In this document: piece by piece, positions 4,416 through 61,195 of the stretch
Position numbering within the stretch: position 1 is the stretch's first letter
How the letters are laid out: every line of letters begins with the position of its first letter
Assembly: GCA_022072445.1 (NCBI GenBank)
Contig: JAJVHV010000019.1
Span: forward strand, 1-64,000
Source of the DNA: Phycisphaerae bacterium
Lineage (GTDB): Bacteria > Planctomycetota > Phycisphaerae > UBA1845 > Fen-1342
Direction: 5' to 3'
DNA: 64,000 bases
Made by a program: the position numbers and the translations under genes
Notes under the pieces: model-generated
Databases searched by the model: none
What the model saw: the letters and a program-made list of their open reading frames with translations, nothing else
What the model was told of the DNA's origin: nothing

Positions 4416-6446
4416 ATGCCGTCGCTGCGTGAACGCGTCTCGAGCGAGCTGTTGCCGCGGGTGCGCGGACCGGCGCAGTACATTGGCGGCGAGGTGAATC
4501 AGCTTGCCGGGCCGGGCGACTGGGAGCAGGCCGAGATTCGGGTCGCGGTGGGTTTCCCGGACGCGTACACCATCGGCATGTCGCATCTGGGCTGCCAGAT
4601 TCTCTACTGGCTGTGCAATCACACGCCGGGGGTCTGCGCCGAGCGGACGTACGCTCCGTGGGTGGACGCGGAAGCGGTGATGCGGCAGCGCGGCATTCCA
4701 CTGTTCACGTGGGACACGCGGCAGGCCGTGCGCGAGGCGGACATCTTCGCGATCTCGCTGCAATACGAGATGTGCTTCACGACCGTGCTGAACATGCTCG
4801 ATCTGGCGGGAATTCCGCTGACGCATGACGAGCGGATGAAGCGGGGAACTGAGTGGCCGCTGATCATCGTCGGCGGGCCGCAGGCCGATAATCCCGAGCC
4901 GATGGCGGATTTCGTCGACCTGGTCGTGATCGGCGACGGCGAGCACAGCATGGCCGCGATCCTGGAGGCGTATCGCGAGCTGAAGCGGGCCGGTGTCAGC
5001 AGGAGTGACATGATCGTCGCGATGGCGCGGCGCTTTCCGTGGATCTACGCGCCGAACCTCTACGACGTGTCGTATCACGCCGACGGAACGATCGCCGACA
5101 TGACGCCGCGCGTCGCCGGCATTCCGACGCACATCGAGCGCTGCAAGACGCCGGACTTCGACGAGGCGCCGTTTCCGGTTCGGCCGCTGGTTCCGTGGGT
5201 CGAGGTTGTGCACGACCGTATCGCGATCGAGATCATGCGCGGCTGTCCGCAGGTGTGCCGCTTCTGCCACGCCGGGTACACCAAGCGCCCGCTGCACTAC
5301 CGCACGCCGCTGCGCATCGTCGAGATCGCCGAAGAGGCCTACTGGGCGACGGGTCAGGATGAGATCGGGCTGCTGAGCCTGAGCACGGCGGATTACCCGC
5401 TGCTGCGGGAGTTGACCAGCCGGCTGAACGAGCGCTTCGCGCCGCGGCGCGTGAACCTGAGTTTTCCGTCGCTGCGCATCGACCGGATGTTGCAGAACAT
5501 TCCGTGGATGGCCAACACCGTGCGGAAGGGCGGCATCACGATGGCGGTCGAGGCAGCCCGCGACGACATGCGCAAGGCCATCCGCAAGAAGGTCACCGAC
5601 GGCAACCTGATGGACGGCGTGCGCGAAGTGTACCGGGCCGGGTGGAATCGCGTGAAGCTCTACTTCATGGCGGGCTATCCGGGCGAGCGCGGCGGCGACA
5701 TCGACGGCATCTGGGAGCTGACGCAGGCGGTCAGCGACGAACGCCGATCGATCGGCAAGCCGCCGGCCGAGGTGACGGCGAGCGTCGGCTGGCTGGTGCC
5801 CAAGCCGTTCACGCCGTTGCAGTGGATGGCGCAGCCGCGCGTGGAGTACTTTCAGTCGGTGCGCGAGCGCTTGCGGGGGCTGGCGCGCGGCGAGCTGCAT
5901 TGCGGTGGCGGGTATGGGTCGGTGGAGTTAGACGCGAGGCAGCGAGAAGCGACGGAGCGACGAAGCGACGAAGCGACGAAGGGAGGGGAGCGCGAGGCTC
6001 CTGCCGAGCCGCCAGGCCGCGCTGTGAGCATCTCAACCGTTGCACCAGTCACACACGGCTCCGCGCGAGCCGCGCCGTCCCGATCGCCTCGGCGGCGCGG
6101 CCGGGCGCGCGTCCGCGTCACGACGCACGATCCGCACGTCTCGATTCTCGAAGGTGTTTTCGCGCGCGGCGATCGGCGGCTGGGACGCGTGATACTTGAG
6201 GCGTGGCGGCGCGGGGCGCGGTTCGACGGTTGGACGGAGTGTTTTCGGCGCGAGGTCTGGCGGCAGGCGTTCGAGGTAGCGGGCATTGATCCGGACTGGT
6301 ACGCACATCGCGAGCGGTCGCCGGACGAGCGTCTGCCGTGGGACCACATCGGGCTGCACATGAGTCGCGAGTATCTCGAGCGGAGTTACGGCGACATGTT
6401 TGCGCAGTTGGGCGCGTCGCGGCCGCTGCCGGTGCTGGTGGAATAG
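4416..6446 (+). CDS. TIGR03960-type B12-binding radical SAM protein with in-frame repeat insertion
   Basis: 676 residues from ATG 4416 (the GTG at 4398 lies at the likely ribosome site). The N-terminal part resembles a B12-binding domain (IGMSHLGCQILY, VGGPQADNPEP). The radical SAM cluster motif RGCPQVCRFCHAG (CxxxCxxC) follows at about residue 277. The C-terminus (about 575-676) is the family tail ending in a YGDMF-containing segment. Between them, about residues 506-570, lies a low-complexity arginine-rich insert whose DNA carries four ACGRAGSS octamers (5952-5983); this part is probably not ancestral. The stop codon TAG lies inside the first GAATAGC repeat. Substrate unknown; these proteins are often encoded beside a DUF2344 protein, absent here. 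Confidence 0.88.
   Translation: MPSLRERVSSELLPRVRGPAQYIGGEVNQLAGPGDWEQAEIRVAVGFPDAYTIGMSHLGCQILYWLCNHTPGVCAERTYAPWVDAEAVMRQRGIPLFTWDTRQAVREADIFAISLQYEMCFTTVLNMLDLAGIPLTHDERMKRGTEWPLIIVGGPQADNPEPMADFVDLVVIGDGEHSMAAILEAYRELKRAGVSRSDMIVAMARRFPWIYAPNLYDVSYHADGTIADMTPRVAGIPTHIERCKTPDFDEAPFPVRPLVPWVEVVHDRIAIEIMRGCPQVCRFCHAGYTKRPLHYRTPLRIVEIAEEAYWATGQDEIGLLSLSTADYPLLRELTSRLNERFAPRRVNLSFPSLRIDRMLQNIPWMANTVRKGGITMAVEAARDDMRKAIRKKVTDGNLMDGVREVYRAGWNRVKLYFMAGYPGERGGDIDGIWELTQAVSDERRSIGKPPAEVTASVGWLVPKPFTPLQWMAQPRVEYFQSVRERLRGLARGELHCGGGYGSVELDARQREATERRSDEATKGGEREAPAEPPGRAVSISTVAPVTHGSARAAPSRSPRRRGRARVRVTTHDPHVSILEGVFARGDRRLGRVILEAWRRGARFDGWTECFRREVWRQAFEVAGIDPDWYAHRERSPDERLPWDHIGLHMSREYLERSYGDMFAQLGASRPLPVLVE
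5952..5983 (+). repeat. In-frame ACGRAGSS octamer array (4 units)
   Basis: Four contiguous 8-nt units, ACGGAGCG then ACGAAGCG twice then ACGAAGGG, lie within the radical SAM gene and encode part of its hydrophilic insert. The same octamer family recurs at 23080-23140, 51001-51040, 52555-52610, 53644-53683 and 57464-57495. Confidence 0.85.
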
Positions 6447-6863
6447 CGAATAGCGAGTTCAGAATAACGAATTGAACTCCGACCCAATCCGTGACTCGCC
6501 ATTCGACATTCGCTATTCATCCGCGTGGCCGCGGAGGACCAACGCCACGCAACTTGGCCACGGAGAAACGACGAAAGCCGGGCCTCCTGGCGATCGCGAG
6601 CGGGATCGAGTCCCATGATCGCCGAGCGGGCTGGCCGCTTGGCCGCCCAAAGATGAGAAACATCTTGAAGGAGCCCCGGCGGGAGAATCTTGGGCGTGGA
6701 TCTGGGGCAAAGCAAGGCGGCGTGTTGGACACGAACACGGGCGAGGTGTTGAGAATAGCGAATTGAAACTGCAACGCCGCCCTATTCGCCGAGCTCTCCA
6801 ATTCGTTATTCGCTATTCGACATTCGCTATTCATCCGCGTCGCCGCGGAGGGCCTACAGCGGC
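6444..6863. repeat. Two copies of the GAATAGC hairpin element in a gene-free stretch
   Basis: Each copy starts with TAGCGAA-type heptamers (6444 onward; about 6748 onward), continues with a GAATAACGAATTGAAC-like core, and ends with inverted heptamers (TTCGTTATTCGCTATTC) followed by a conserved ATCCGCGTGGCCGCGGAGG tail. The left copy supplies the TAG stop of the radical SAM gene. The roughly 200 nt between the copies are unique and hold no convincing gene. The arms could pair into a long hairpin acting as a bidirectional terminator between convergent genes. Confidence 0.75.
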
Positions 6864-15143: not shown

Positions 15144-15178
15144 AGCGGAGGGAGCGGGGAGTGGGGAACAGGTGCCGG

Positions 15179-15262
15179 GGTTCAGGGGGCGGGTTCAGGG
15201 TTCAGGGTCCCGGGTTCAGGGTTCAGGGTTCAGGATTCAGGGGCAGGATTCAGGGGTCAGAA
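15179..15262. repeat. GGTTCAG heptamer tandem repeat
   Basis: Imperfect units of GGTTCAG with inserts of GGTCCC and ATTCAGGGG cover this stretch, for example CGGGTTCAGGGTTCAGGGTT near its middle. It lies between ispF and the chorismate-lyase-like gene. The same heptamer occurs at 46209-46270. The motif superficially resembles telomeric repeats, but is short and internal. Confidence 0.85.
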
Positions 15263-22201: not shown

Positions 22202-22300
22202 AGGGGATTTCTCCATATCCGGACCCGCGCCAGAGCCGCGCTCGTGCCGCACCAAACCCGCGCAGGCGCCAAAGCCAGAGCCGCGCCCGTCAGGAAGCGG

Positions 22301-22455
22301 CTCGGGTGCCCTGCCGACGGCCGTTGCGTCGGCAGGGCCGCGTCGCGCGCCGTCGCCGCAAGCCGTAAACACGCGCGTCGCGTGCTCGGGTGCCCTGCCG
22401 ACGGCCGTTGCGTCGGCAGGGCCGCGTCGCGCGCCGTCGCCGCAGGCCGTTAACA
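22301..22455. repeat. Two 84-bp direct repeats with REP-type hairpin
   Basis: CTCGGGTGCCCTGCCGACGG starts at 22301 and again at 22385, an 84-bp period, and the following sequence is nearly identical in both copies. Each copy contains the hairpin CCCTGCCGACG/CGTCGGCAGGG also seen at 208-236. The spacer 22202-22541 holds nothing else that looks functional. Confidence 0.85.
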
Positions 22456-22541
22456 CGCCCTCCCGGCCCAAGCACCCCCACCCACCCGACGATACAATCT
22501 GTCAGTAACCGGGCCCGCGCGCCCAACTCGAGAACCCCAGC

Positions 22542-23079: not shown

Positions 23080-23140
23080 GTCCTTTCGTCGCTTCGTCGC
23101 TCCGCAGTTCCGTGGCGGTCTCGCTTCGTGGCTATCATCT
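23080..23140 (-). repeat. ACGRAGSS octamer array in the mgtE leader
   Basis: Read on the minus strand the spacer contains GCCACGAA, GCGAGACC, GCCACGGA, ACTGCGGA, GCGACGAA, GCGACGAA, that is about six 8-nt units, some degenerate. It occupies nearly all the spacer between the zinc-ribbon gene and mgtE. Confidence 0.7.
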
Positions 23141-25863: not shown

Positions 25864-27318
25864 GTGAATGCCACGTCCGGTTGCTTAGCCCGGCGGATGC
25901 GGTTGGCGATGCATGCGCCGCCGATTGCGCATGCGCCGCCGATCGCGCGTGCGTTGCTGATCGGGCGTGCAGGGCTGATCGCGCGTGCGTCGCTGATCGG
26001 GCGCGGATTGATCCTGGCGGTTGCGGTGCTGCTGCTCGCCGGGTGTGCGTCGCCGCGGGAGGTTAGTGGGCGGATGACCGAAGCGCAGCGCGAGGCGCAG
26101 CGCGACGGCGTCGCGGGCACCGGCCGGCCGAGCGGGGCGACCGGCATCGCAGCCAACAGCCGGGCGGCGGGCGCGACCGGCGGCGCGTCGACCGCCGCTT
26201 CTGGCGGCGGAACAGCAGGCGCGTCGGGGCCTGGGCCGAGCAGCGCGCCGGCCGGTGCCGCCGCGCCAGGCAACCGGGCGGAGCGGGCCGCGCCGCCGAT
26301 GAATGCAGCGGCCATCATGGCGGACGTGTTGATGGTCGATGGTGATTCGCTGACGGTGGACGAGTTTCTTTATCCGCTCCGCCGCGAAATCCTGGAGCGC
26401 CGGCAGACGCAGACCGTGCGTGGCTTCGCGGATTGGCTGGGGGAGGAGCTGCGGACGCAGTTGCGGCGCGAGGTGGGTTCGCTGCTGCTGTTTCACGAGG
26501 CGATGGCGCCGCTGGGCGACGATCAGAAGCAGGCGGTCGATCGGTTTGTCGACAAGCGGATCGACGAACTGGTGAACGAGCGTTTCGGCGGCGTTTCGGC
26601 GCGGCTGGACAACGATCTGGCGCGGTTTGGGCTGAAGCGCGAGCAACTGCGGGCGTCGATGAAGCGCGGGTTGATCGTCGGGCAGTACACGCGCGACAAG
26701 TTTCTGCCGCAGGTGCGCATCCGCCGCGACGAACTGCTGGCGTCGTATGAGCAGAGCGTGGCGCGGCTTTCGAGCAGCGGGCGGCGCGAGCTCTGGATCA
26801 TCGAGGCGCCGTTCGCGCGCTTCGTGCCCGACGGGGCGAGCTGGAACATCGCCGGGGCGGCGGCGCGCGACGCTGCCCGGCGTGAGGCCGCTGGGCAGAT
26901 TCGCGCGGCGCAAGCCGCGCTGACCTCGCAGCCGTTCGACGAGGTCGCGCGGACGTTCTCGCGCGGGGCGCACGCGGCGGATGGCGGCTTGTGGGGCGAG
27001 ATCGCGCTGCCGCTGATGCCGCCCTATGACCGCGCGACGCAGCGGTTTTTCGACATGAAGGAAGGCGACGTGAGCGACCCGATCGAGACCGACGCGGGCT
27101 GGTGCATCGTGCGCTGCGGACGGATCACGCCCGAGCAGCGGCCGACGTTCAGCGAGGTGCAGACGCGCCTGCGGAGCGAGCTGGAGACGCGGCGGCTCAA
27201 CGAGCTGATCGGCGAATACGTCGCCCGCAAGGCCGAGCGGGCCGCGATCTCGCCAATCGATCCGTTCATTGCGACGGCGGTGCGGCGGGTGCTGCAGTGG
27301 CCGGCCGAGGGTGGCTAG
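25864..27318 (+). CDS. Parvulin-type peptidyl-prolyl isomerase lipoprotein
   Basis: 484 residues from GTG 25864; ATG 25897 is an alternative. The signal peptide is unusually long: it starts with tandem six-residue units (PPIAHA, PPIARA, LLIGRA, GLIARA, SLIGRG) before the hydrophobic core LILAVAVLLLAGC, whose Cys is the lipidation site. A Gly/Ala/Ser linker follows, then a SurA/PrsA-like chaperone part (about 140-330). The parvulin domain is near 360-440 (HAADGGLWGEI, GDVSDPIETDAGWCIVRCG). It probably helps fold exported proteins. The stop TAG is the first triplet of a GAATAGC element. Confidence 0.85.
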   Translation: MNATSGCLARRMRLAMHAPPIAHAPPIARALLIGRAGLIARASLIGRGLILAVAVLLLAGCASPREVSGRMTEAQREAQRDGVAGTGRPSGATGIAANSRAAGATGGASTAASGGGTAGASGPGPSSAPAGAAAPGNRAERAAPPMNAAAIMADVLMVDGDSLTVDEFLYPLRREILERRQTQTVRGFADWLGEELRTQLRREVGSLLLFHEAMAPLGDDQKQAVDRFVDKRIDELVNERFGGVSARLDNDLARFGLKREQLRASMKRGLIVGQYTRDKFLPQVRIRRDELLASYEQSVARLSSSGRRELWIIEAPFARFVPDGASWNIAGAAARDAARREAAGQIRAAQAALTSQPFDEVARTFSRGAHAADGGLWGEIALPLMPPYDRATQRFFDMKEGDVSDPIETDAGWCIVRCGRITPEQRPTFSEVQTRLRSELETRRLNELIGEYVARKAERAAISPIDPFIATAVRRVLQWPAEGG

Positions 27319-27437
27319 CGAATAGTGAATAGCGAATAGCGAGTTAAGAATGACGAATGAAACGGCGGCCGGTCCAATTCGTTGTTCGCTATTCGCTATT
27401 CGCCATTACGCGTGGCCACGGAGGGCCGACCGTACGG
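27316..27437. repeat. Complete GAATAGC hairpin element
   Basis: Starts at the TAG stop of the parvulin gene as TAGCGAATAGTGAATAGCGA, passes through AAGAATGACGAATGAAAC, then the inverted arm CAATTCGTTGTTCGCTATTC, and ends with a GCGTGGCCACGGAGGGCCGA tail. The order is the same as at 6444 and 43231. Confidence 0.85.
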
Positions 27438-35750: not shown

Positions 35751-37118
35751 TTGACGCCGCCGGCTGCACGCGAGCGCTGGCGGAGATCGAACCGGATTGC
35801 GTGGAGCGCTCACCTGGCTCACTCAACGCGACTCAGCGACGCCGACGCACTTGCGCTCTATCACGATCTCAGCATTCACGAGCTGGGCCGGCGGGCGTTT
35901 GCGCGGCTGAGCGAACTGCATCCGGAGCCCTACCGCACGTACGTGGTCGACCGCAACATCAACTATGCCAATGTCTGCACGGCCAGGTGCATCTTCTGCA
36001 ATTTCAAGGCGGACCCGGGCGACGCCGACGCCTACATTCTCTCGTTCGAGCAGATCGGGCGGAAGATCGAGGAATTGATCGAGATCGGCGGCACGCAGAT
36101 TCTGATGCAGGGCGGCCTGGTGCCCGACCAGAACGACCCGCACGGCCACGGACTGCCGTTCGAGTGGTACCTCGACCTGCTGCGCTTCATCCGCGGGAAT
36201 TACCCGTCCATTCACATTCACGCCTTCAGCCCGCCTGAGATCTGGGCGTTTCACCAGGTCTACCACATGCCGCTGCGCGACGTTCTGCTGCGCTTGCGCG
36301 ACGCGGGTCTGGCCACGATTCCGGGTGGCGGCGGGGAAATTCTGGTCGATCGCGTCCGTCGCAAGATCGGCCAGGGCAAGACGCTGACGCACGAATGGCT
36401 GGCGGTGATGCGCGCGGCGCACCAGCTCGGCATGAAGACGAGCTGCACGATGATGTTCGGGCACATCGAGACGGTCGAAGAGCGCATCGAGCACATGCGC
36501 CTGCTGCGCGATCTCCAGGACGAGACCGGCGGATTCACGGCCTTCATCCACTGGCCGTTTCAGCCGGAGGGCACGCCGCTGGGGCGCTGGAAGCGGTTGC
36601 CGGTGGATGAACGTGAGATAGTGAGAAAGTCGGAAAGCGGGAATGGAAGCGCTGACGCACGACCGTCCCACGTTCCCACGTTGCCACCTTCCCACTTTGC
36701 GCGGCCCGCGCCGGACGGCGAACATCTTCTTCTGGCCGACGCACACGAGTATCTCGTCATGCTGGCGATCGCCCGGCTCTACTTCGACAACATCCCGAAC
36801 ATCCAGTCGAGCTGGGTGACGATGGGCCCCAAGGTCGGGCAACTCGCCCTCTTCTACGGCGCCAACGACATGGGCAGCGTCATGATGGAGGAGAACGTCG
36901 TCAGCCAGGCCGGGGCGACGTATCGCCTGAGTGAAGACGAGATTCGCCGTCTAATCACCGACGCCGGCTGGCAGCCGCAGCAGCGCGACCAGTATTACCG
37001 GCCGGTGGATACGTCGGCTCAGCGCCGCGGCTCCGGCGGCGCGCCGCCCGGCGCCTCACGCGAGGCGCAGCCGGTTGTGCCGCTCACTGTCTCGGGAACC
37101 TCACCCGCCGCCCGTTGA
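35751..37118 (+). CDS. mqnC: Cyclic dehypoxanthinyl futalosine synthase MqnC
   Basis: 455 residues from TTG 35751, the only start that gives a normal N-terminus. A radical SAM enzyme of the futalosine menaquinone pathway. Family landmarks: YVVDRNINYANVCTARCIFC with the CxxxCxxC cluster (VCTARCIFC), GGTQILMQGGLVPDQ, IHIHAFSPPEI, IPGGGGEILVDRVR and MMFGHIETVEERIEH, ending near ENVVSQAG. Around residues 287-322 an insert (VRKSESGNGSADARP onward) is encoded by two inverted octamer arrays and splits the segment between WKRLP and the HLLLADAHEYL helix; it looks acquired. The C-terminal 30 residues are also extra. Stop overlaps the convergent kinase gene by 18 nt. Confidence 0.92.
   Translation: MTPPAARERWRRSNRIAWSAHLAHSTRLSDADALALYHDLSIHELGRRAFARLSELHPEPYRTYVVDRNINYANVCTARCIFCNFKADPGDADAYILSFEQIGRKIEELIEIGGTQILMQGGLVPDQNDPHGHGLPFEWYLDLLRFIRGNYPSIHIHAFSPPEIWAFHQVYHMPLRDVLLRLRDAGLATIPGGGGEILVDRVRRKIGQGKTLTHEWLAVMRAAHQLGMKTSCTMMFGHIETVEERIEHMRLLRDLQDETGGFTAFIHWPFQPEGTPLGRWKRLPVDEREIVRKSESGNGSADARPSHVPTLPPSHFARPAPDGEHLLLADAHEYLVMLAIARLYFDNIPNIQSSWVTMGPKVGQLALFYGANDMGSVMMEENVVSQAGATYRLSEDEIRRLITDAGWQPQQRDQYYRPVDTSAQRRGSGGAPPGASREAQPVVPLTVSGTSPAAR
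36613..36695. repeat. Inverted pair of octamer arrays inside mqnC
   Basis: Left arm units: GTGAGATA, GTGAGAAA, GTCGGAAA, GCGGGAAT. Right arm units: CGTCCCAC, GTTCCCAC, GTTGCCAC, CTTCCCAC. The right arm is roughly the reverse complement of the left, so the insert can fold into an imperfect hairpin. Reading frame is kept. Confidence 0.85.
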
Positions 37119-43222: not shown

Positions 43223-43230
43223 CAGCGGTG

Positions 43231-43462
43231 AATAGCGAATAGCGAGTGGCGAGTTAGGAATGACGAGTTGAACTGCGACGCCGCCCTATTCGGCAAGCTG
43301 ACCAGTTCGTTATTCGTTATTCGCTATTCATCCACGTGGCCACCGAGGGCCGACGCTACGGTGAATAGCGAATAGCGAGTTAAGAATGACGAGTTGAACT
43401 GCGACGCCACCCTATTCGGCAAGCTGACTAATTCGTTATTCGCTATTCGTTATTCGCTATTG
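43231..43462. repeat. Two tandem GAATAGC hairpin elements
   Basis: The first copy runs from GTGAATAGCGAATAGCGAGT through AATGACGAGTTGAACTGCGA, CTATTCGGCAAGCTGACCAG, TTCGTTATTCGCTATTC and the ATCCACGTGGCCACCGAGGG tail to about 43361. The second begins there and repeats the same order but stops at the pgi stop codon, which is provided by the repeat itself (TAG within CAATAGCGAA on the minus strand). The two copies are nearly identical over most of their length. Confidence 0.9.
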
Positions 43463-45184: not shown

Positions 45185-46204
45185 ATGCCCCATCGTCGAT
45201 CGAGCCGCCGCCGGCATTCGCTTCGCCTCGCTGCCGGCCCGGTCGCGGCGCTGATCGTCGTCGCCGCGAGCGGCTGCGCCACGTCGCGGACGCTTCCCGA
45301 GCAACGCACGACAGCGCCCGAATCCGGCGGCGGCGCGGCTTCACCGATCACGTGGCGCGTTCCCACCGACACGCGCGCCGCGGCCGAGCTGGTGCGGGCC
45401 GGGCGGCGCGGGCTGGCCCTGCTGCGCGAGTTTGACGCTTCGACACCCGAGCAACTGGAGCGCACTTACAAGCCCTATCTGCACGTCTATGACGCGCAGG
45501 GCCGCGAGCCGATCACCAAGGGAACCGGCGGGCTGTACCCGCATCATCGCGGCGTCTTCGTCGGCTGGAACAAGGTTCGCGTCGGCAACCGCGAAGTGGA
45601 TTTCTGGCATATGCGCGGCGGCGTGCAGCGCGTGCTGTCGACGACGCCGGTCGCCGCCGCGGAAGGGCGGGCGGCGCTGGCGGCCGAAGTGGCGTGGATG
45701 GCAACCGACGGCGAAGTGCTGGTGCGCGAGTATCGTGAGATCATCGCCTGCGCGACATCCGACGACGTGCTGGCCCGCTTCGACGTCGTCTCGACGCTCT
45801 TCGCGCCGCAGGACGCCGACGTCGCACTCGACGGCGACCCGGAGCACGCCGGCGTCCAGTTCCGCGCCAGCAACGCCGTCCACGAAGGGCCCCCGGAAGG
45901 AAAGGCGGCGTACACGTTTGAGCGCGACGGCGTCGACGCCCACCGCGAGCGCGACCTGCGCTGGGTGCTGATGAGCTGTCGCGTCGGCGGGCAACGCTAT
46001 CACGTGCTGCACATGAACGACCCGAACAATCCGCCTGCGACGCTCTATTCGGCCTATCGCGACTACGGCCGATTCGGAGCGTTCTTTCGTGCCGTCATTC
46101 CGCGCGGCGGCATGTTGCGGATGCGTTACGGTTTCGTCGTCTTCAGCGGCGAACCCCCGCCCCGCGAAACGCTCGAACGCAGCTATGCGACGTTCGCGGA
46201 TTGA
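45185..46204 (+). CDS. DUF6807-like (PmoA-family) lipoprotein
   Basis: 339 residues from ATG 45185; the longer frame through pgi is a shadow. A basic N-terminus and ALIVVAASGC lipobox mark a lipoprotein. The domain pattern KGTGGLYPHHRGVFVGWNKV, VDFWHMRGGVQRV and a closing MRYGFVVFSGEPP matches DUF6807 (formerly named PmoA after annotation, but not a methane oxygenase subunit), a galactose-mutarotase-like beta sandwich common in planctomycetes. The catalytic role is unknown. The stop TGA is directly followed by a GGTTCAG array. Confidence 0.85.
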   Translation: MPHRRSSRRRHSLRLAAGPVAALIVVAASGCATSRTLPEQRTTAPESGGGAASPITWRVPTDTRAAAELVRAGRRGLALLREFDASTPEQLERTYKPYLHVYDAQGREPITKGTGGLYPHHRGVFVGWNKVRVGNREVDFWHMRGGVQRVLSTTPVAAAEGRAALAAEVAWMATDGEVLVREYREIIACATSDDVLARFDVVSTLFAPQDADVALDGDPEHAGVQFRASNAVHEGPPEGKAAYTFERDGVDAHRERDLRWVLMSCRVGGQRYHVLHMNDPNNPPATLYSAYRDYGRFGAFFRAVIPRGGMLRMRYGFVVFSGEPPPRETLERSYATFAD

Positions 46205-46208
46205 GTGG

Positions 46209-46270
46209 TCAGGGTTCGGCGTGTTGAGTGGTCAGGGTTCAGGGTTCAGGGTTCAGGGTTCGGAGAAGCA
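46209..46270. repeat. GGTTCAG heptamer tandem repeat
   Basis: GTGGTCAGGGTTCGGCGTGT is followed by GTGGTCAGGGTTCAGGGTTC and further perfect heptamers to about 46262. Same family as 15179-15262. The array begins within a few bases of the DUF6807 gene's stop codon. The remaining spacer to 46400 holds a hairpin-like CCATCCGTGGCCACGCTGCGG sort of sequence but no gene. Confidence 0.85.
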
Positions 46271-49849: not shown

Positions 49850-50009
49850 GAGCATGAGATCGCTATCCGCCATCGCCGCCCGCTACCGCACGCACGCCCG
49901 GCCCCAGTCCGTCCCCACGCGCTCCGGGAGCGATAACGTTCTTCACAACCTACCAAGCCCAAATCACGCCCGATATCATCTCTCCCAGCGCACCGCTCGC
50001 GAGACCCGC

Positions 50010-53000
50010 ATGACTCAATTCGCACCACCCTTCGTGCACCTCCACGTCCATACCCACTACAGCTTGCTCGACGGCGCTACCCGCATCCCCGACCTCGTCA
50101 ACGCCTGCAAAAACCTCAACATGCCCGCCGTCGCCATCACCGACCACGGAAACATGTTCGGATCCATCGAGTTCTACAAAGCCGCAACCGCCGCCGGCAT
50201 CCGTCCGATCATCGGCTGCGAAACCTACCTCGCTCCCGCCGACCGCCGCGACAAACGCGACCCCGGCGGAAACCGCGAAACCGCCTATCACCAGCTCCTC
50301 CTCGCCGCCAACCTCACCGGTTATCGCAACCTGCTCAAGCTCTGCAGCATCGGCTACCTCGAAGGCTTCTACTACAAACCCCGCATCGACAAGGACGTGC
50401 TGCGCCAGTTCTCCGCTGGGCTGATCTGCACCAGCACCTGCCTCGGCGGCGAAGTGCCGCAGGCCTTCCTCAAACAAGACGCCGCCGCCGCCCGGCGCGT
50501 CGCCGAAGAATTCCTCGACATCTTCGGACCCGAGCGCTTCTTCATCGAGCTCCAGAACCATGGCCTGCCCGAACAGAAAACGCTCAACCCCGAACTGGCC
50601 GCATTGGCCAAACGCCTCGGCGTCGCGACGATCGCGACGAACGACGTGCATTATCTGTCGCACGACGACGTCGAAGCGCACGACGTGCTCTGCTGCATCA
50701 GCACCCGCGCCCGCGTCGCCGACGAGAACCGCTTCAAGTTCGAGTCCGATCAGTTCTATCTGAAGTCGCCGCAGGAGATGCTGGCGGCCCTGCCGGACTA
50801 CCCCGAGGCGCTGGCCAACACAATGCGCGTGGTGGAGATGTGCAACCTTGAGCTCGATTTCTCGAAGCGCTACGCGCCGGTCTATCGCGCCCCCGACGAA
50901 AAATCCGCCGACGACTACCTCCGCGAGCTGGTCTACGCCGGCGCCGCGTCCCGCTATGGTGCGAACCGTGACGAAGCAGCTCCGTCGACTTCTTCTCCCC
51001 CTTCGTCGCTTCGTCGCTCCGTCGCTCCGTCGCTCGCTTCATGCCTGTCCGACGAACTTCGCGAGCGCATCGACTACGAACTGTCCGTCATCCGCGACAA
51101 GGGTTTCTCGGGCTACTTCCTGATCGTCTGGGATTTCGTCCGCTACTGCCGCGAGCACGACATTCCGTGCGGGGCGCGCGGCAGCGGTTGCAGCACGGTC
51201 GTGGGCTACTGCCTGCGCGTGTCGGACGTCGATCCGCTGAAGTACGGGCTCTATTTCGAGCGCTTCATGGACCCGGAGCGTGACGAGATGCCCGATATCG
51301 ACGTCGACATGTGCCAGGACCGCCGCCAAGAGGTGATCGACTACGTCCGGCAGAAGTACGGGCACGTGGCACAGATCATCACGTTTGGGACGCTCAAGGC
51401 CCGCGCGGCGATCCGCGACGTGTGCCGCACGCTGGACGTGCCGCTCTCCGAGGCCGACCGCATCGCCAAGCTCGTGCCCGAAGAGCTGAAGATGACGATC
51501 GAAAAGGCGCTGGAGCGCGAGCCGGCCCTGCGGCAGCTTTACGACGGCGATCCGAAAATCCGCCGCGTGCTCGACATCTCGAAGCGGCTGGAGGGTCTGG
51601 CGCGGCACGCGTCGGTGCACGCCGCCGGCGTGGTGATCGCCGACCAGCCGCTCGACACACTCGTGCCGCTCTACAAGCCGGCCGACTCGGACGACGTTAT
51701 CACGCAGTATGAGGGCGCGACGGTCGAGAAAGTCGGCCTGCTGAAGATGGACTTTCTCGGGCTGCGGACGCTCTCGCAGATTCACCGCACCTGCCAGCTC
51801 GTCCGCGCGCATCACGGCCGAACGATCGACCTCGAATCGCTCGACCTGGAAGACCCGCGCGTCTACGAGCTGCTCAGCCGCGGCGACACGCGGGGCGTGT
51901 TCCAGTTCGAATCGGGCGGCATGCGCGACGTGCTGATGAAGATGAAGCCGAACCGCATCTTCGACCTGATCGCCGCCAACGCGCTGTATCGCCCGGGGCC
52001 GATGCAGTACATCGACGAATACATCGCCCGCAAACACGGCAAATCCTGGACCACGCCGCACGCCAACATGACCGAGGTGCTCAGCGAGACCTACGGCATC
52101 ATGGTTTATCAGGAGCAGGTCTCGCGGCTGGTGAACCGGCTGGGCGACGTGCCGCTGCGACGCGCGTTCCGGCTGGCCAAGGCGATCTCGAAGAAGAACA
52201 CCAAGATGATCGACGCCGAGCGCGAGCCGTTTCTGGCGGGCGCCGAGAAGAACGGCGTGCCGCGCAAGGTGGGCGAGCAGATTTTTGCGGACATCCTGCA
52301 ATTCGGCGGCTACGCGTTCAACAAGGCGCACTCGTCGGGCTACGCGCTGCTCGCGTTCCAGACCGCGTGGCTCAAGACGTATCACCCGGTCGAATTCATG
52401 GCGTCGCTGCTGACGTATGAATCGGGCGATCGCGACAAGGTGGCGGATTACATCCAGGAGTGCCGGCACATGCGCCAGCCCGACGGCAGCGTGGGTATTC
52501 CGGTCGAGCCGCCCGACGTCAACCGCAGCGAGCTGGCGTTCACGGTGGTGTACGACGAAGGAACGGAGCCACGAAGCCACGGAGCCACGAAGCCACGGAG
52601 GGACGGAGGTGTCGGCCGCGGGCGAGTTCTGTTCGGGCTGGCGGCGATCAACGGGCTGGGCGAGAAGGCGATCAACGCGATTATCGAGGCGCGGCGGCAG
52701 GGCGGCCCGTTTCGCGACATCTACGACTTCTGCGAGCGCGTCGACCTGGCCGCGGTGAACAAAGCGGCGCTGGAAAGCCTGGTGAAGGCCGGCGCGTTCG
52801 ACCGGACCGGGGCGATGCGCGGCGCGCTGTGGCGCATCCTCGGCGGCGCGATGGAGCATGGGCAGGCGATGCAGCGCGACCGGCGCAGCGGGCAGATGAG
52901 CATGTTCGGCGAGCTCGACGTGGGCGCGGCTGCAACCGCGGGCGGCGCAGCGCGCGTGATTCCGGCCGACGAGTGGAGCGAGTCGGAAATGCTGGCGCAT

Positions 53001-53639
53001 GAAAAGGAAACGCTCGGCTTCTACGTCACCAAGCATCCGCTGACGCAGCATCTGGAGACGATCGAACGATTCCGCACGACGACGATCGCGGCGGCGAAGG
53101 GCATGAGCGAGGGCGCGCGGGTGGTGCTGGGCGGGCTGATCTCAAAGGTCCGCGAAGTGCCGATCAAGAACGGGCGCAGCGCCGGCAAGCGGATGGCGGT
53201 GATCCAGCTTGAGGATCTCAGCGGCGGAATCGAAGCGGTCGTGTTTCCGGACCAGCTCGACGCGCTGCGCCCGCGGCTGCGGCCCGACAGCGTCGTGTTC
53301 CTGAGCGGCGAAGTGGACAAGCGCCGTGAGGACGCGTGCATCCGCACCGGCAGCATCACGCCGGTGGAGGACGCGGCCCGCGAGCTGGCGCGGGGCGTGG
53401 TGGTGCGCCTGCGCAGTCTGGGCGGGCCGGCGGAGTCGGTGCCGCGGATTCGCGAGCTGGTGCGGGCGCATCGCGGCCGCTGCCCGCTGTTTCTCGAGGT
53501 GTCGTCGGCGGACGGCTGGCGAACGGTGATCGAGGCGGACGGCGGCGCGGCGGTGTCGCCGAGCGGCGAGCTGCTGCGCGGGCTGGCGGCGGTGGTGGGC
53601 GAGGGGAATGTGAGTTGCGTGGGGGGGAGGTGGAATTGA
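50010..53639 (+). CDS. dnaE: DNA polymerase III alpha subunit DnaE
   Basis: 1209 residues from ATG 50010, chosen because FVHLHVHTHYSLLDGA (PHP domain) follows directly; the long upstream frame is untranslated. The palm has the catalytic aspartates in DEMPDIDVDMCQDRRQEVID, then the fingers, a helix-hairpin-helix region (LFGLAAINGLGEKAINAI), and an OB domain (VVLGGLISKVREVP). It is the replicative polymerase. Two inserts look acquired: residues about 320-343 (SSPPSSLRRSVAPSLASC) and about 849-867 (GTEPRSHGATKPRRDGG), both encoded by 8-nt repeats. The protein must tolerate them, as this is the only dnaE in the window. Confidence 0.97.
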   Translation: MTQFAPPFVHLHVHTHYSLLDGATRIPDLVNACKNLNMPAVAITDHGNMFGSIEFYKAATAAGIRPIIGCETYLAPADRRDKRDPGGNRETAYHQLLLAANLTGYRNLLKLCSIGYLEGFYYKPRIDKDVLRQFSAGLICTSTCLGGEVPQAFLKQDAAAARRVAEEFLDIFGPERFFIELQNHGLPEQKTLNPELAALAKRLGVATIATNDVHYLSHDDVEAHDVLCCISTRARVADENRFKFESDQFYLKSPQEMLAALPDYPEALANTMRVVEMCNLELDFSKRYAPVYRAPDEKSADDYLRELVYAGAASRYGANRDEAAPSTSSPPSSLRRSVAPSLASCLSDELRERIDYELSVIRDKGFSGYFLIVWDFVRYCREHDIPCGARGSGCSTVVGYCLRVSDVDPLKYGLYFERFMDPERDEMPDIDVDMCQDRRQEVIDYVRQKYGHVAQIITFGTLKARAAIRDVCRTLDVPLSEADRIAKLVPEELKMTIEKALEREPALRQLYDGDPKIRRVLDISKRLEGLARHASVHAAGVVIADQPLDTLVPLYKPADSDDVITQYEGATVEKVGLLKMDFLGLRTLSQIHRTCQLVRAHHGRTIDLESLDLEDPRVYELLSRGDTRGVFQFESGGMRDVLMKMKPNRIFDLIAANALYRPGPMQYIDEYIARKHGKSWTTPHANMTEVLSETYGIMVYQEQVSRLVNRLGDVPLRRAFRLAKAISKKNTKMIDAEREPFLAGAEKNGVPRKVGEQIFADILQFGGYAFNKAHSSGYALLAFQTAWLKTYHPVEFMASLLTYESGDRDKVADYIQECRHMRQPDGSVGIPVEPPDVNRSELAFTVVYDEGTEPRSHGATKPRRDGGVGRGRVLFGLAAINGLGEKAINAIIEARRQGGPFRDIYDFCERVDLAAVNKAALESLVKAGAFDRTGAMRGALWRILGGAMEHGQAMQRDRRSGQMSMFGELDVGAAATAGGAARVIPADEWSESEMLAHEKETLGFYVTKHPLTQHLETIERFRTTTIAAAKGMSEGARVVLGGLISKVREVPIKNGRSAGKRMAVIQLEDLSGGIEAVVFPDQLDALRPRLRPDSVVFLSGEVDKRREDACIRTGSITPVEDAARELARGVVVRLRSLGGPAESVPRIRELVRAHRGRCPLFLEVSSADGWRTVIEADGGAAVSPSGELLRGLAAVVGEGNVSCVGGRWN
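51001..51040 (-). repeat. In-frame octamer array 1 in dnaE (reverse orientation)
   Basis: Five contiguous 8-nt units on the plus strand: CTTCGTCG twice, CTCCGTCG twice, CTCGCTTC. These are the reverse complements of ACGRAGSS-type units. They encode Ser/Arg-rich residues between two helices of DnaE that are normally close together. Confidence 0.85.
52555..52610 (+). repeat. In-frame octamer array 2 in dnaE
   Basis: Seven contiguous units: ACGAAGGA, ACGGAGCC, ACGAAGCC, ACGGAGCC, ACGAAGCC, ACGGAGGG, ACGGAGGT. They lie just before the LFGLAAINGLG segment and encode EPRSHGATKPRRDGG. Essentially the same array occurs right after the dnaE stop codon. Confidence 0.88.
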
Positions 53640-53643
53640 AGCT

Positions 53644-53683
53644 ACGAAGCCACGGAGCCACGGAGCCACGAAGCGACGGAGCA
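53644..53683 (+). repeat. Octamer array after the dnaE stop
   Basis: Five units: ACGAAGCC, ACGGAGCC, ACGGAGCC, ACGAAGCG, ACGGAGCA, starting five bases after the TGA of dnaE. Shares sequence with the array inside dnaE at 52555. Confidence 0.85.
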
Positions 53684-53685
53684 AC

Positions 53686-54090
53686 GCCGAGTCCGATGGC
53701 AAACTCAGGTCGAACCCCTCCCTGACGGTCGGGGCTCGGCTGGGAGCGCGGGCTCTACGCCGGCCGCCGCTTGCTGACGGTCGGGGCTCGGCGCCGAGTC
53801 CGATGGCAAGCTCAGGTCGAACCCCTCCCTGACGGTCGGGGCTCGGCTGGGAGCGCGGGCTCTACGCCGGCCGCCGCTTGCTGACGGTCGGGGCTCGGCG
53901 CCGAGTCCGATGGCAAACTCAGGTCGAACCCCTCCCTGACGGTCGGGGCTCGGCTGGGAGCGCGGGCTCTACGCCGGCCGCCGCTTGCTGACGGTCGGGG
54001 CTCGGCTGGGAGCGCGGGCTCTACGGTCGGGGCTCGGCTGGGAGCGCGGGCTCTACGCCGGCCGCCGCTTGCTGACGGTCGGGGCTCTCA
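53686..54090. repeat. 107-bp tandem repeat array
   Basis: Units begin at 53686, 53793 and 53900 with GCCGAGTCCGATGGCAA, an exact 107-bp period and almost identical copies. The third copy continues into truncated repeats of GACGGTCGGGGCTCGGCTGG and GAGCGCGGGCTCTACG up to about 54090. No open frame is maintained. This gene-free stretch separates dnaE from the cysteine-synthase-like gene. Confidence 0.92.
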
Positions 54091-57392: not shown

Positions 57393-57463
57393 CGTGTGAT
57401 CGAGCTCCTCGAATGACGGGCGGCATGTTAGGACGTGCGGTTCGGCGGGTCAAACTGGAAGGG

Positions 57464-57495
57464 ACGGAGGGACGCGGGGACGAAGGGACGAAGTG
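57464..57495. repeat. ACGRAGSS octamer array between ahcY and carB
   Basis: Four units: ACGGAGGG, ACGCGGGG, ACGAAGGG, ACGAAGTG, in the divergent spacer upstream of both genes. The promoters of ahcY and carB must lie around it. Confidence 0.8.
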
Positions 57496-61155: not shown

Positions 61156-61195
61156 GCAACGGCAATGCAGAATGAAGAGTGCAGAATGCAGAACG
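61156..61195. repeat. GCAGAAT heptamer array between carB and guaA
   Basis: CAACGGCAATGCAGAATGAA continues as GAGTGCAGAATGCAGAACG: units GCAGAAT, GAAGAGT, GCAGAAT, GCAGAAC. It matches the copy at 31620 almost base for base, including the lead-in. Located between convergent genes. Confidence 0.85.

Follow-up and report, generated by a model that had tools for sequence, protein, structure and literature searches.

Arrays in the window and in the genome

The window analyzed here is a stretch of 64,000 nucleotides (contig JAJVHV010000019.1, positions 1 to 64,000) from the 5.25 Mb genome of a Phycisphaerae bacterium (assembly GCA_022072445.1, labelled G000 below). It carries dnaE, the gene for DNA polymerase III alpha, and, within dnaE, within other genes and between genes, short tandem arrays of the octamer ACGRAGSS or its reverse complement. 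An earlier note, made from the sequence alone, had described these arrays; all of those it named were found, at coordinates exact or a few bases off. The array in the mgtE leader is present as well, but it is weak, with just 2-3 units. The window also has heptamer arrays (AATAGCG, GGGTTCA, AATGCAG) that the note lacked and that are the same kind of thing as the octamer arrays. This study concerns the relation of both to genes for IVP (S23, PF05635), a four-helix-bundle protein. The features are as follows.

50004..53639, plus strand: dnaE; the true start probably lies at about 50004 (MTQFAPP...)
50966..51044, minus strand: dnaE in-frame insert 1, 27 aa, with a minus-strand ACGRAGSS array at 50999-51038 ending in a ACGAAGGG unit
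52555..52610, plus strand: dnaE in-frame insert 2, a single-arm ACGRAGSS array in a hypervariable loop after AFTVVY
53644..53683, plus strand: single-arm ACGRAGSS array directly past the dnaE stop codon
5944..5983, plus strand: in-frame ACGRAGSS array in the radical SAM gene (TIGR03960), beyond residue 505, where a profile match ends
36610..36695, no strand assigned: palindromic octamer element of the AACGTGGG dialect, in frame in mqnC; the TIGR03699 match is interrupted at residue 311
23082..23105, minus strand: ACGRAGSS array upstream of the gene called mgtE in the earlier note
57456..57495, plus strand: degenerate ACGRAGSS array between the genes there called ahcY and carB
6439..6518, no strand assigned: AGCGAAT palindromic heptamer element at a gene end
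6801-6832: lone AGCGAAT arm
27315..27407, no strand assigned: intergenic palindromic heptamer element with AGCGAAT arms, strong hairpin (fold z -5.4)
43229..43329, no strand assigned: intergenic palindromic heptamer element with AGCGAAT arms, first of a pair (fold z -6.1)
43361..43461, no strand assigned: AGCGAAT palindromic heptamer element, second of the pair, same intergenic region
15178..15260 and 46192..46261, both plus strand: GGGTTCA heptamer arrays, in the dialect of the arms around the C6 IVP gene
61164..61193, plus strand: AATGCAG heptamer array, in the dialect of the arms around the C16 IVP gene

Genome-wide numbers were obtained from pattern searches and from 1.17 Mb of sequence stretches. 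Three exact consecutive ACGRAGSS units occur 145 times in the genome, as against once for a reversed-pattern control; the 103 triple-unit matches listed fall, by hand count, into about 39 separate places. Within the window, two-unit matches with up to 2 mismatches number 28 against 5.6 expected, a figure reached in none of 100 shuffles. In a sample of 0.86 Mb (858,700 bases) chosen without regard to arrays, strong tandem arrays are concentrated at period 7 (13 arrays) and period 8 (18 arrays), while periods 4-6, 9-11 and 13 have 0-1 each; lowering the threshold also brings periods 6, 9 and 12 up to 15-17, as expected from codon structure. The arrays are short, 57 of 65 ACGRAGSS arrays having 3-5 units (mode 4), and they are directional, since a GG ending is commoner in the last unit (39/65) than in inner units (61/238). 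RNA folding of the intact intergenic palindromes of the window gave z-scores far better than shuffles (-5.4 and -6.1, listed above). This was not the case for the mqnC element (z -1.5) or for dnaE insert 1 (z -0.85), and the latter therefore forms no strong hairpin now; its second arm, left of the array, is degenerate.

In-frame inserts in dnaE, dnaE2 and other protein genes

Octamer arrays lie within valS, uvrA, argS, glnS, nadA, nrdJ, metH, a gene for an HscA/DnaK-like chaperone, the TIGR03960 gene, mqnC, dnaE and dnaE2. In several of these (valS, nadA, mqnC, TIGR03960 and the chaperone gene) the profile match is interrupted near the array. The in-gene copies keep the reading frame, as the earlier note had stated: a codon model trained on the same Phycisphaerae genome placed both flanks in the same frame for 18 of the 23 octamer clusters bordered by coding sequence left and right, 17 being stop-free, though some of the 23 share a gene and hence are not independent. 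For the heptamer dialects AATGCAG, GGGTTCA and AATAGCG, most clusters are intergenic.

The closest DnaE relatives belong to metagenome-assembled genomes (MAGs, as are most of the genomes compared here) from Phycisphaerae and other Planctomycetota. Alignment with these proteins bore out the expectation that insert 1 would be missing from relatives: only G019 has sequence at this position, and there the insert is a different, palindromic one (L133; identical in the named record L066). Insert 2 lies in a loop that differs in nearly every relative. Read from the peptides, the loops of relatives encode arrays of GGATCAAG, GGAACGTG, AAGGGAAC, GGCCAAGG and GGACCAAG, followed in several cases by the inverse arm. 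By-eye comparison matched the two dnaE insert sites to two insert sites in dnaE2, a correspondence consistent with tolerant loops.

The dnaE2 gene (error-prone polymerase) provides the most telling case. In this genome it is a single open frame of 1748 aa, whereas several relatives that lack large inserts have 1061-1096 aa. The largest inserts are bounded on the left by an octamer array and on the right by its inverse, and their +1 frame encodes an IVP domain (PF05635, E 1.6e-35 and 6.5e-35; TIGR02436 also matched). At the site after LTALRKCFEL, an insert of 150-206 aa is found in 11 of 20 genomes, and in G094 (L310), which belongs to a different family, an IVP gene with ACGGAGGC arms occupies the corresponding site. 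The IVP frame is +1 relative to the host in all dnaE2 copies. Across the IVP gene the host frame is free of stops in 13/13 copies, when synonymous reshuffling of the IVP codons would leave 1.4-3.5 stops on average; the probability of no stop is 0.02-0.22 per copy, and the product, 4e-16, overstates the case because the 13 copies share ancestry. Both frames, that of IVP and that of the dnaE2 host, appear from these sequences to be conserved. Frameshifted normal dnaE2 sequence between two arrays was considered and dismissed, as insert-free relatives have no sequence there and the +1 frame matches IVP. A period-7 IVP element also sits in frame in a PglX-like methyltransferase open reading frame (ORF) of G021 (L274, C332), directly before ILDPACGSGSFL, its relative frame judged by eye to be the same +1. 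The same ORF has further period-7 inserts directly before catalytic motifs.

An alternative would be that the inserts in protein genes are removed, by RNA cutting or splicing or by translational bypass, and so never translated. Intervening sequences (IVSs) in 23S rRNA are excised by RNase III (PMC4990558), and the strongest inserts here would form mRNA stems. Removal, however, would make it unnecessary to keep the frame and avoid stops, both of which are conserved, most visibly over the 13 dnaE2 IVP inserts. We regard such removal as very improbable; an intron or spliced insert in particular is disfavored by the conservation of frame.

IVP loci, dialects and the origin of solo arrays

Full elements encode IVP; the solo arrays of the window do not. 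At IVP loci of the family with enough flank, period-7/8 arrays were sought within 300 bp of the IVP gene and were found at 31/33, the two flanks being inverted at 30/33 (the null for inversion was a simple base shuffle). The background, about 62 arrays in the 858,700-base sample, corresponds to some 0.04 arrays per 600 bp. When all four IVP queries are used, the loci of the family number 35, of which 32 are inverted. Elsewhere in Planctomycetota the flanks are inverted at 23 of 28 loci, with period 7 at 17, period 8 at 5 and period 9 at 3. Most of 18 plasmid IVP loci (cyanobacteria, Riemerella, Gemmatirosa and Azospirillum) have inverted or one-sided period-7/8 arrays, the plasmids so flanked, fully or in part, including those of Nostoc, Calothrix, Anabaena, Pseudanabaena, Geminocystis, Riemerella and Gemmatirosa. 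Since independent MAGs (for example L310, from a two-contig genome) and complete plasmids display the same architecture, an assembly artefact was discarded. The elements occupy non-rRNA sites, such as dnaE2, the methyltransferase gene and the space between atpG and atpD, and do not lie in a 23S rRNA hairpin loop. The only solved structure related to IVP by sequence is 2gsc, an entry with five IVP-relative chains; speculatively, and as the 3-5 units usual in an array would allow, a ring of IVP subunits might bind one array unit per subunit. On a Pseudanabaena and an Anabaena plasmid (L319 and L323) the IVP gene lies between cas6 and cas4, with heptamer arrays around it.

Genes for RAYT, the Y1 tyrosine transposase associated with repetitive extragenic palindromic (REP) sequences, offered a control and a competing explanation, namely that the arrays are REP-like elements mobilized by RAYT. 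Such genes occur in nearly all genomes of the family (ten Y1_Tnp matches in this one) and their flanks are inverted repeats, as the explanation would have it. Period-7/8 arrays are nonetheless found at 0/19 RAYT loci, whose palindromes are non-tandem and of other sequence, and this origin seems to us extremely improbable. The inverted, REP-like flanks of the family RAYT genes (L202-L231) are seen at 18 of 19 loci, and some Y1_Tnp matches fall inside open frames longer than 900 aa.

The dialects link arrays without IVP to IVP genes of the same genome. ACGRAGSS is the dialect of the two IVP copies inside dnaE2, GGGTTCA that of the C6 IVP gene, and AATGCAG that of the C16 IVP gene (L265, G000:C16:15299-15592), which lies between genes read as atpG and atpD; all three are among the main solo-array dialects of the sampled sequence. 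ACGRAGSS is common only in some genera of the family (156 matches in G021, 145 in G000, 92 in G019, 54 in G001) and nearly absent in the order's other families; other genera use different octamers. Across the phylum the SRAGGG pattern is patchy, with low-complexity GGAGGG matches adding noise. Four genomes, G000, G021, G001 and G012, have a cognate IVP at least 63% identical to that of the window's genome, and they rank 1, 2, 4 and 6 of 27 for ACGRAGSS; by our own arithmetic, 7 of 17,550 rank sets would be equally extreme. Likewise, where the arms of the dnaE2 IVP read ATYRAGGG, the predicted richness in this octamer was seen in G015 (61), G003 (63), G009 (27) and G010 (21), while G000, G001, G019 and G021 have none. 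G025, with its dnaE2 unread, is rich in it too (29).

These patterns bear on a reading of the arrays as local microsatellites (an expanding microsatellite is one of two sources suggested in the earlier note): replication slippage from a local seed at each place, tolerated in genes because the octamer is free of stops in every frame. The arrays are tandem, the octamer does lack stops in all frames, and local duplication is also at work, as higher-order duplications (33, 39 and 45 bp) attest. Slippage would not, however, place a single dialect at dozens of unrelated loci, and a different one in another genus, nor would it single out periods 7 and 8, make arrays specific to IVP flanks or lay inverted copies on the two sides of a 350-bp gene. 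The microsatellite is thus quite unlikely as an explanation. The note's other suggestion, a small mobile repeat colonizing coding sequence, agrees with what was seen (the dialect dispersed through the genome, inserts missing in relatives, the frame kept).

A further possibility is that the arrays are an older, independent repeat system, into or beside which IVP elements insert, the arrays being target rather than arms. Most arrays do have no IVP, and they also occur several close together. Yet the flanks are inverted, not direct copies, and both period and dialect follow the IVP phylogeny: 10 changes of period label are required on a 54-IVP tree, as compared to 18.6 when the labels are shuffled, with 0/200 shuffles as low. 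One IVP clade is found in varied places, at two dnaE2 sites, beside glmS in G021 and in another family's dnaE2; this last case (L310) carries the same ACGGAGGC arms along with its IVP. The arms within one element share a dialect while elements at the same dnaE2 site differ between genera, so that the two arms seem to change together. Finally, an IVP element with GTAACAAG arms is present in G007, whereas in its congener G024 the same pair of genes is separated by some 114 bp of other sequence with no array. The comparison amounts to presence and absence of an IVP element and gives neither the direction of the change nor the element's ends; in a second one (L245 in G025) just one flank was located. 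Arrays as mere targets are, in our judgment, unlikely.

We consider it probable, instead, that octamer and heptamer arrays alike are arms, arm-derived remnants or short derivatives of small IVS-type elements. A full element consists of an IVP ORF, some 115-125 codons long, set between a tandem array with about 3-5 units of 7 or 8 bp and an inverted copy of that array. When present as RNA or single-stranded DNA, it can fold into a stem that holds IVP in its loop, much as 23S rRNA intervening sequences do. Solo arrays, which we infer to descend from IVP elements, are dispersed through intergenic DNA and, for stop-free dialects, through protein genes as well, where only in-frame insertions in tolerant loops would survive, translated as charged, probably flexible peptides. 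IVP may act in trans on repeat-bearing RNA or DNA, the arms being putative binding sites, and may thereby mobilize the solo arrays.

Several observations weigh against this interpretation. An opposite-strand array lies within 700 bp for only 16 of the 65 ACGRAGSS arrays counted; most solo arrays are therefore single-armed and not palindromic as they stand. No IVP partner for the AGCGAAT dialect was found in this assembly. G019, with its 92 ACGRAGSS matches, is without a close cognate IVP (the genome is 82% complete), and G013 has cognate ATYRAGGG arms but one solo array match only. No target-site duplication is visible between G007 and G024, where the flanking spacer has diverged and the empty site is not clean, and no transposition event was seen in the compared genomes. 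At plasmid loci L317 (Nostoc HK-01), L320, L322 and L330 the periodic arms are weak, partial or absent.

Other repeats were encountered along the way. In-frame, palindrome-like peptides (SRDREGAV...NPLPHGRGSD and QPSPDRQGGVR) in valS (L113), dnaE2 (L162) and metH (L173) suggest further, unrelated in-frame repeat families in the genome. In the window, tandem 107-bp repeats with CCTCCCTGACGGTCGGGGCTCGG (53685-54057) directly follow the array trailing dnaE, and a pair of near-identical 84-bp repeats (97% matches) lies at 22300-22458.

Related systems and a possible wider class

Intervening sequences of 23S rRNA with an S23p/IVP ORF are known in Coxiella and Leptospira, where their ends form a stem (PMC4990558), and rRNA genes of the candidate phyla radiation (CPR) have IVP-bearing insertions together with shorter, ORF-less versions at the same sites (PMC11270868). 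The elements described here resemble them in placing an IVP ORF between complementary ends able to pair as a stem; they differ in residing in protein genes or intergenic DNA, in having 7/8-bp tandem arms, in leaving the host frame open across IVP and in the many solo arrays around them.

Rickettsia palindromic elements are a kind of selfish DNA found in frame within essential protein genes; to our knowledge they have neither tandem 8-bp arms nor an IVP partner. By description, the elements seen here share with them the in-frame insertion of a palindromic element into protein genes.

Dispersed heptamers have been reported as short tandemly repeated repetitive (STRR) sequences in cyanobacteria (Mazel et al. 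1990, as cited in PMC4692102), as GGGAATC in Xanthomonas and GGGGAYT in Nostoc (PMC4692102), and as TAACTGA in Beggiatoaceae (PMC4679880). Those of Xanthomonas form about 70 close inverted pairs per genome and are 89-93% intergenic (PMC4692102). Our arrays have in common with these the dispersed 7-bp tandem units and a genome-specific dialect. The AGCGAAT, GGGTTCA and AATGCAG arrays resemble STRRs in being dispersed and mostly intergenic; the octamers depart from this in their period of 8 and in lying within genes, and a gene partner and in-frame coding insertions likewise set the present elements apart from the published, mostly intergenic heptamers. Neither "S23" nor "four helix" occurs in the two heptamer papers (PMC4692102 and PMC4679880), which link no gene to the heptamers, and no connection of IVP/S23 to short tandem arrays was found in the accessible portions of the open-licence PMC literature. 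Each of the three ingredients, namely IVSs with IVP, dispersed heptamers and palindromic elements in frame, has been described before; what appears new, as far as we found, is their joining.

IVP genes between cas6 and cas4 have led to a CRISPR-associated function being considered (PMC3936711). In the Pseudanabaena and Anabaena plasmids, genes of the same family have inverted heptamer arrays on either side, a layout that suggests insertion elements. The Avd protein of diversity-generating retroelements (DGRs) resembles PF05635 and is essential for retrohoming (PMC10053308); it is a distant homologue of the IVPs of the window's genome, which match the Avd model below its cut-off (21 bits against 80).

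A broader proposal, which we hold to be as apt to fail as to stand, is that IVP with inverted 7/8-bp tandem arms makes up an overlooked class of mobile elements across bacterial phyla, with solo arrays as its non-autonomous members; that it is the source of cyanobacterial STRRs and similar heptamer and octamer arrays; that it is able to live in essential protein genes with both frames read; and that IVP copies repeat RNA or DNA to new places. If true, many unexplained 7-8-base bacterial repeats would gain a common source in a small element with an IVP/S23 gene. Heptamers and octamers have been described since 1990 in cyanobacteria and later in Xanthomonas and Beggiatoaceae, their source unexplained, and the pairing with IVP provides a concrete, testable candidate. 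It likewise offers a candidate role for IVP, a family of unassigned function related to the DGR protein Avd, whose genes, where they occur in cas or other operons, may have inserted there and not belong to the systems in question. The dnaE2 and DNA methyltransferase genes, with a second gene in another frame, would represent an unusual case of natural overlapping coding inside large conserved genes.

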